Part shown: positions 53,992-54,751 of the stretch, piece after piece
How positions within the stretch are numbered: position 1 is the first letter of the stretch
How the letters are laid out: each line of letters begins with the position of its first letter
Origin: a bacterium
GTDB lineage: Bacteria; Bacteroidota; Ignavibacteria; Kapaibacteriales; UBA7675
Length of the DNA: 64,000 nt
Assembly (NCBI GenBank): GCA_030430495.1
Contig: JAUIKM010000026.1
Span: forward strand, 1 to 64,000
Direction: 5' to 3'
Notes under the pieces: generated by a model
What the model saw: only the letters and a program-made list of their open reading frames with translations
Told to the model about the DNA's origin: nothing
Databases searched by the model: none
Position numbers and translations under genes: made by a program

Positions 53992-54032
53992 CATCAGGAG
54001 AATCTGGCCCAGCCGGTGTCGAAACCAAAAAA

Positions 54033-54105
54033 ATACCCGGCGCCGGGAAGCGCCAGGCATGAGCATCGCGCACGGGCGCCAGGGGAGAGGTTCCCGTTCA
54101 ACTCA
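54033..54105 (+). ncRNA. Structured repeat unit 1
   Basis: Hairpin 1: ATACC/GGCAT outside GGCGC/GCGCC. Linker GAGCATC-GCGC. Hairpin 2: arms ACGGGCGCC and GGTTCCCGT around the conserved loop AGGGGAGA, then TCAACTCA. This is the most divergent unit; its hairpin 1 differs from the others but still pairs. The strand is assigned by convention only. Confidence 0.7.
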
Positions 54106-54389
54106 AAATTTGTTCGGTATCTGTGGCCGTGTCATCACCCTGGCCGCGCCGGGCACGGTTGTTGCAAACTTGTTTCCAGCGGTCGGAACCTAAACGCAGC
54201 CGAACCGTCGCGCGGGCGCAGGACGGTGAACAGCACATTGCACCGTCGTGCCGTGAAAAGAACGGCAGCCCGGGCATGACTGACAAAGATTGCAGATTTC
54301 AGTTACAGGTGGTTTCGACGCCGAGGGGAAACCTGGTCGGAAGGCTCTGGTATAAAAAAGGCGGCGCATCGAAAATTCAGGGCAAAAAA

Positions 54390-54461
54390 ATACCCGGCGT
54401 CGGGGACGCCAGGTATGAGCATCTATCACGAATTCCAGGGGAGCGGAACTCGCTCAACTCA
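54390..54461 (+). ncRNA. Structured repeat unit 2
   Basis: Hairpin 1: ATACC/GGTAT outside GGCGTC-GGG-GACGCC, with a C-A mismatch between the two helices. Hairpin 2: arms ACGAATTCC and GGAACTCGC around AGGGGAGC. It ends TCAACTCA. Confidence 0.75.
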
Positions 54462-54476
54462 AAAGTAGTCTGAAAT

Positions 54477-54503
54477 CGCGGGCCGTCAGTACGACGGCCC
54501 GCG
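54477..54503. other. Perfect GC-rich hairpin between units 2 and 3
   Basis: Arms CGCGGGCCGTC and GACGGCCCGCG pair over 11 bases with loop AGTAC; GGGAAATTTT follows. It could act as a terminator, but the T-run is weak. Confidence 0.6.
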
Positions 54504-54511
54504 GGAAATTT

Positions 54512-54583
54512 TCACCCGGCATCAAAGACGCCAGGTGTGAGCATCTGGCACGGACATCAGGGGAGAGACATCCGTTCAACTCA
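54512..54583 (+). ncRNA. Structured repeat unit 3
   Basis: Hairpin 1: CACC/GGTG (paired change from TACC/GGTA) outside GGCATC-AAA-GACGCC. Hairpin 2: arms ACGGACATC and GACATCCGT around AGGGGAGA. It ends TCAACTCA. Confidence 0.75.
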
Positions 54584-54598
54584 TAAGGTATAAGGCTA

Positions 54599-54620
54599 AG
54601 CGACCGCCGCGGCGGCCGCT
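54599..54620. other. GC-rich hairpin between units 3 and 4
   Basis: AGCGACCGCC and GGCGGCCGCT pair with a single mismatch across a minimal loop. No T-run follows. Confidence 0.5.
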
Positions 54621-54628
54621 GAATTTAA

Positions 54629-54700
54629 ATACCCGGCATCGAGGACGCCAGGTATGAGCATCTAGCGCAACAATCAGGGGAGTGATTACTGCTCAACTCA
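54629..54700 (+). ncRNA. Structured repeat unit 4
   Basis: Hairpin 1: ATACC/GGTAT outside GGCATC-GAG-GACGCC. Hairpin 2: arms GCAACAATC and GATTACTGC around AGGGGAGT. It ends TCAACTCA, 51 bases before the 3' end of tRNA-Met (opposite strand). Confidence 0.75.
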
Positions 54701-54751
54701 AAAGCTTGCTGAGAAATTTTCTTCAAAGAACGTTTGCTCAAAGGTCAAACG

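Follow-up and report, generated by a model that had tools for sequence, protein, structure and literature searches.

Between a tRNA-Met gene and a convergent response-regulator gene, a genome of Candidatus Kapabacteria (assembly GCA_030430495.1, contig JAUIKM010000026.1) carries a short element in four copies, and the locus raises the question of what these copies encode. To our knowledge, almost nothing is known about RNA regulation in Kapabacteria and related lineages. An initial sequence-only reading had described the copies as tandem units of two hairpins each, had read them on the plus strand, and had considered repeated small RNAs, a 3' UTR element or protein-binding hairpins as explanations. 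We analysed the locus within a window of 64,000 nucleotides (positions 1 to 64,000 of the contig, forward-strand numbering) and followed the element into related genomes.

Four units lie downstream of tRNA-Met

Repeat detection in the window recovered four copies, at 54032-54109, 54388-54465, 54510-54587 and 54627-54704, with 67-79% identity to the reference copy and with the two-hairpin order described for them. The fourfold repeat thus stands, but its even tandem spacing does not: start-to-start spacings are 356, 122 and 117, and the outermost unit lies about 280 nt beyond its neighbour. The location between tRNA-Met and the response-regulator gene (Response_reg plus HD_5), which is indeed convergent to the array, had also been given correctly, although it had been missed that tRNA-Met and the array point the same way and that the array follows shortly after the tRNA gene. 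The minus-strand order is tRNA-Met (CAT; 54825-54751, called by ARAGORN and matched by the Rfam tRNA model with 66.7 bits), then u4, u3, u2 and u1, with the response-regulator gene beyond u1.

All four units are matched on the minus strand by R1, the covariance model built from them. The first copy after the tRNA, u4 (54624-54699, 96.0 bits), consists of a closing stem P1, a stem P2 with the loop ACUCCCCU and a hairpin P3, with no T-run after P3. The next, u3 (54507-54582, 97.5 bits), has the loop UCUCCCCU and likewise lacks a T-run after P3. In u2 (54385-54460, 101.4 bits, loop GCUCCCCU) and u1 (54028-54104, 91.8 bits, loop UCUCCCCU) the terminator scan found a terminator hairpin followed by TTTTTTT. 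What had been taken for the first hairpin is, on this strand, a terminator-like hairpin at the 3' end, and its T-run is present after u1 and u2 and absent after u4 and u3.

When tRNA-Met to u2 was folded as one 457-nt precursor RNA, a z-score of -6.8 was obtained, and both the minimum-energy and the centroid structure contained P2 and P3 of every unit together with two GC-rich spacer hairpins. One of these is a palindrome between u4 and u3 (54599-54620, inverted repeat I2), and the other an 11-bp stem between u3 and u2, read directly from the sequence (54477-54503). Both spacer hairpins are strong and may direct how the precursor is processed. A 14-nt inverted repeat (93%) at 54014-54027 and 54310-54323 flanks u1 and part of its spacer; a mobile element was considered here and rejected, the u1-u2 spacer being single-copy in the genome.

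The units are read from the minus strand and their helices covary

The plus-strand orientation did not survive folding. Minus-strand z-scores of units 1 to 4 are -2.7, -6.0, -5.6 and -4.3, against -1.8, -2.5, -1.1 and -1.4 on the plus strand. Across 57 relatives, 94.5% of cells are paired on the minus strand and 81.9% on its complement, and 189 of 1357 pair cells are G-U cells, which pair on the minus strand only. Since these 189 G·U pairs turn into A·C mismatches on the other strand, the RNA strand is the minus strand. The terminator hairpins and T-runs of u1 and u2, as well as the promoters described below, have the same orientation. That the plus strand is the functional RNA, presenting AGGGGAG loops, is in our view hardly credible, even though its helices partly form there too, and we rejected it. 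The order of the hairpins is consequently reversed, and AGGGGAG becomes the complement of a functional loop YUCCCCU.

On the minus strand, a unit of about 76 nt comprises the short stem P1, a variable 9-bp P2 carrying the loop YUCCCCU, and the terminator hairpin P3, which abuts P1. Two hairpins per unit had been described correctly, but P1, a third helix (UGAG/CUCA; GAGU with GCUC in the window) that closes the P2 hairpin, had been missed; it is invariant within the window and covaries in relatives. The paired changes in the hairpin arms had been attributed to selection on RNA structure, and the counts bear this out. In A2, the alignment of the four units, 98% of cells are paired and eight pairs show two-sided changes; each of the observed measures was reached by only 0-4 of 500 shuffles, and slid controls gave 26-42% paired cells. 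Covariation in a wider alignment, named beforehand as the point on which the structure might fall, holds as well: two-sided changes occur in 18 of 25 pairs in alignment A4 (31 sequences) and in 21 of 24 pairs in A6 (57 sequences), where all three helices covary and P1 varies between GC/CG and AU/CG/UA. The 94.5% of paired cells in A6 fall to 35-42% when the alignment is slid. Both A4 and A6 were fitted to a model, which biases them toward structure, yet the unfitted A2 agrees with them. A U·G pair within P3 is retained as U·G in 42 of 57 sequences. Taken together, it is nearly certain that this RNA family exists and that it is encoded on the minus strand.

The family is absent from Rfam and is spread across the class

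The family had not been recognised by eye, and no Rfam 15 family reached its gathering threshold in the window or in 12 relatives: the RNA family is real and is absent from Rfam 15 at curated thresholds. The option of repeated small RNAs is supported as well. A search of related genomes with a model of the four units, as had been suggested, returned matches to R1 in 41 of 61 genomes of the same order. R2, built from 31 sequences, matched 49 of 123 genomes of the order, and R3, built from 57 sequences, matched 161 of 391 genomes of the class in 87 of 190 genera, with one to seven copies each; the large searches used stricter filters by which weak matches were lost, so divergent copies may be missed in these counts, which may also include a few false positives among the weakest matches. 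In family f3 and in genus g4 of the order, the RNA is apparently absent or too diverged for the R2 search, and R3 gave one marginal match (G085). A pattern scan of named genomes returned 30 records, mostly Candidatus Kapabacteria/Kapaibacterium, the others being labelled Chlorobiota, Ignavibacteria or Bacteroidota bacterium. Spread beyond the class was considered and rejected, as the inspected matches in other classes of the phylum (L089, L131-L135) are false positives to the terminator only.

Most Kapabacteria have a single copy. Arrays of four, five and two copies occur in the window genome, G011 and G002, respectively, in each case after tRNA-Met.

Promoters, terminators and linkage to tRNA-Met

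Stand-alone copies (n=55) are preceded by a promoter of the form TTGACA-16/17-TATATTTG, located about 5 nt before P1, which places the transcription start at or near P1. At least five of six box matches were found in 64% of these 55 copies and in 20% of shuffles, and promoter positions -8 and -7 are T in 50/55 and 48/55 copies, respectively. Terminators were found in most copies, and a U-run follows P3 in the alignments. Judged from these sequence features, the stand-alone RNA is a short autonomous transcript with its own promoter and an intrinsic terminator.

A different 5' arrangement is seen in family f8 of the Kapabacteria, where P1 begins at the first base after the end of tRNA-Met as called by ARAGORN (8/8 loci). 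This abutment is consistent with a 5' end made by tRNA 3'-end processing. Linkage to the tRNA also occurs in families f1, f5 and f10; in f5, both tRNA-Met and a TAATTTTG box lie upstream of the RNA, an arrangement which looks like an intermediate state between the promoter and the tRNA-linked forms. In the window, tRNA-Met and the start of u4 are separated by about 50 nt, with no clear box upstream of u4, and this makes co-transcription with tRNA-Met followed by processing the likely route for the window units, as far as sequence can tell. How the individual units would be processed is a guess, because u4 and u3 lack T-runs and none of the window units has a clear TANNTTTG box at the usual place.

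Gene neighbourhoods

The genes around the RNA change from one lineage to another. In genomes from outside the order, the terminator of the main copy is followed by a DUF3098-like gene (a sub-threshold Pfam match) in 20 loci and in 13 of 19 further loci, mostly at a distance of 15-80 nt. Additional copies in the genomes with such a main copy do not have this gene adjacent. ispG (GcpE by Pfam) is present in 15 context loci, usually ending just before the RNA, and eight loci are situated at tRNA-Met, behind a bifunctional-nuclease gene. The small membrane-protein gene of the DUF3098-like type (at L076, L078-L087, L140, L143, L146 and others) seems to be dependent on read-through. A co-oriented downstream gene is absent in the window and in most Kapabacteria, and present for the main copies elsewhere in the class. 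A riboswitch had been dismissed for want of a gene to control; this holds at the locus, where the downstream gene is convergent, but not family-wide, given that in other families the RNA lies mostly 15-80 nt upstream of the DUF3098-like gene.

A C-rich loop is the conserved element

While the stems vary freely, the P2 loop UCCCC (YUCCCCU or near) is kept in 88 of 90 distinct sequences, and both exceptions (L136 and L138) carry CUCCCC in the P3 loop (CUCCCCCC). At least four consecutive C are found in the P3 loops of 43/46 sequences of non-Kapabacteria type and 17/44 of Kapabacteria type. The internal loops, by contrast, are conserved in Kapabacteria only and differ between orders. Since the C-rich loops are kept where the internal loops are not, the conserved function suggested by these sequences is most likely the presentation of a C-rich loop. 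L136 and L138 (family f12) and L137 (f21) are divergent relatives that lie before the DUF3098-like gene; those of f12 lack the C-rich P2 loop and keep CUCCCCCC in the terminator loop.

Several known RNAs share parts of this design. The best look-alike in Rfam is ar14 (alpha-r14)/cuckoo (RF02344; NfeR1 of Sinorhizobium meliloti), which scored 30-37 bits in six loci (maximum 36.8) with both C-rich loops aligned, short of its gathering score of 58.8 bits; the best value in the window was 19.6 bits (u1). In alpha-r14 RNAs an ultraconserved C-rich anti-Shine-Dalgarno motif is kept unpaired on stems strongly differing in sequence (PMC10746234), and as here a fixed C-rich loop sits on variable stems and recurs in the terminator loop. 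The ar14 RNAs differ in having three hairpins, each with the motif CCUCCUCCC, where the present RNA has two, P2 being closed by P1, and the loop CUCCCCU. Unlike ar14, it occurs in Hfq-lacking Kapabacteria and their class relatives and is linked to tRNA-Met or to the DUF3098-like gene. Another sub-threshold look-alike, anti-hemB (RF02837), matches the two hairpins with its C-rich loop and terminator (up to 32.5 bits, L090), but its gathering score of 49.5 bits was not reached and it has an extra hairpin between the two. LhrC1-5 of Listeria monocytogenes is a multicopy sRNA that acts on mRNA by base pairing through a redundant UCCC loop motif (PMC4132741). It shares the multicopy state and C-rich loops, but is unrelated in sequence and structure and gave no Rfam match here, and the LhrC copies are each transcribed from a promoter of their own. 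RsaE/RoxS pairs its C-rich regions with Shine-Dalgarno sequences and does not need Hfq (PMC4409812), but has another fold, belongs to another phylum and gave no Rfam match either. By analogy, the RNA most likely resembles the cuckoo/alpha-r14 and LhrC RNAs in its working, and by the tests run it is not a member of their families.

Discussion

We propose that the minus-strand units are four genes of one small non-coding RNA, and that this RNA acts in trans, independently of Hfq, through pairing of its C-rich loop with Shine-Dalgarno-like sites; we give this reading a probability of about 0.6. The array would probably share a transcript with tRNA-Met, with termination at the intrinsic terminators of u2 and u1. 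P1 and P2 would present the fixed loop YUCCCCU, and P3 would serve as the terminator, often with a second C-run in its own loop. The C-rich loop or loops may then pair with G-rich, Shine-Dalgarno-like stretches (GGGGAG/GGAG) of several mRNAs, and so block ribosome binding without Hfq, while additional copies would raise the dose. Where the RNA is linked to the tRNA, RNase Z would create its 5' end by processing the tRNA 3' end, in place of a promoter. Pairing in trans is what we infer from the loops and their settings: the contexts are unrelated and changing while the RNA stays constant, which favours a role in trans. No Hfq was found in 21 genomes by a search that was positive in five control genomes, including E. 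coli and B. subtilis. A scan for perfect loop complements just upstream of ATG gave no recurring gene behind them, and most matches were not real genes. Loop complements outnumber the reversed pattern, but they do so also where a genome lacks the RNA, and ordinary Shine-Dalgarno sequences may account for the excess. The genome G021 has 16 AGGGGAGA-N(1-12)-ATG sites, against 1 to 4 in its genus siblings G005, G028, G040, G046 and G051.

The multicopy arrays, in which one fixed loop recurs on stems that vary, could alternatively act as a sponge for an RNA-binding protein that recognises the C-rich loop, as CsrB/RsmZ do for CsrA, and CsrA is encoded in the window genome (G000:C71:78739-78894, outside the window) and in 14 of 21 Kapabacteria genomes searched. 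However, the multiple GGA motifs in hairpin loops that mark CsrB/RsmZ do not occur here. CsrA is not the ligand because none of the 57 sequences has GGA in a P2 or P3 loop of the RNA strand, and AGGGGAG loops, which are GGA-like, are confined to the strand with the poorer fold; a CsrA decoy was therefore rejected. For a sponge of any protein, the single copy in most genomes is a poor fit, and we consider it unlikely. We are similarly doubtful that the RNA is in essence a cis-acting 5' leader or transcription attenuator of the DUF3098-like membrane-protein gene, which persisted as a free RNA in Kapabacteria after the gene was lost. The short spacers before this gene leave little room for another promoter, and the leader-like arrangement outside the order is real, so that a leader role keeps some probability when the whole family is considered. 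Yet loop, stems and terminator persist without the gene in the additional copies of these genomes and in nearly all copies from Kapabacteria, the internal loops differ between orders in a way that is unlike a ligand pocket, and the spacers show no consistent complement of the loop.

It is very improbable that the element is nothing more than a terminator or processed 3' trailer of tRNA-Met transcripts, its structure being kept for termination or tRNA maturation. The direct abutment in f8 and the linkage in three other families would suit such a role, but most members have no tRNA directly upstream and a promoter of their own instead, and a terminator gives no reason for the loop on the covarying stem further upstream to be invariant. 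A regulatory RNA can nevertheless arise in this way: 3'ETS-leuZ of Escherichia coli derives from the 3' trailer of a tRNA transcript that is closed by an intrinsic terminator (PMC6191717). RNase E excises 3'ETS-leuZ, which acts as a sponge for another sRNA; the trailer described here differs from it in carrying a class-wide sRNA that has its own promoter elsewhere. Beyond the trans-acting sRNA proposed above, one may speculate, at rather long odds, on a single class-wide, Hfq-independent RNA hub with interchangeable modes of production (its own promoter, the leader of the DUF3098-like gene or the tRNA-Met 3' trailer), whose loop perhaps addresses a general partner, be it ribosome-binding sites at large or a C-loop-binding protein, rather than a few mRNAs. 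If the trailer route is true, the dose of the RNA would be tied to tRNA synthesis.

The family described here is well bounded: both ends of the RNA and its seed loop are defined, a covariance model is available, and the family is directly testable. If its role in trans is true, regulators with C-rich loops would be present in a further, unrelated bacterial lineage. Its fusion to tRNA-Met suggests that an sRNA can give up its promoter in favour of tRNA processing with no change in its 5' end.
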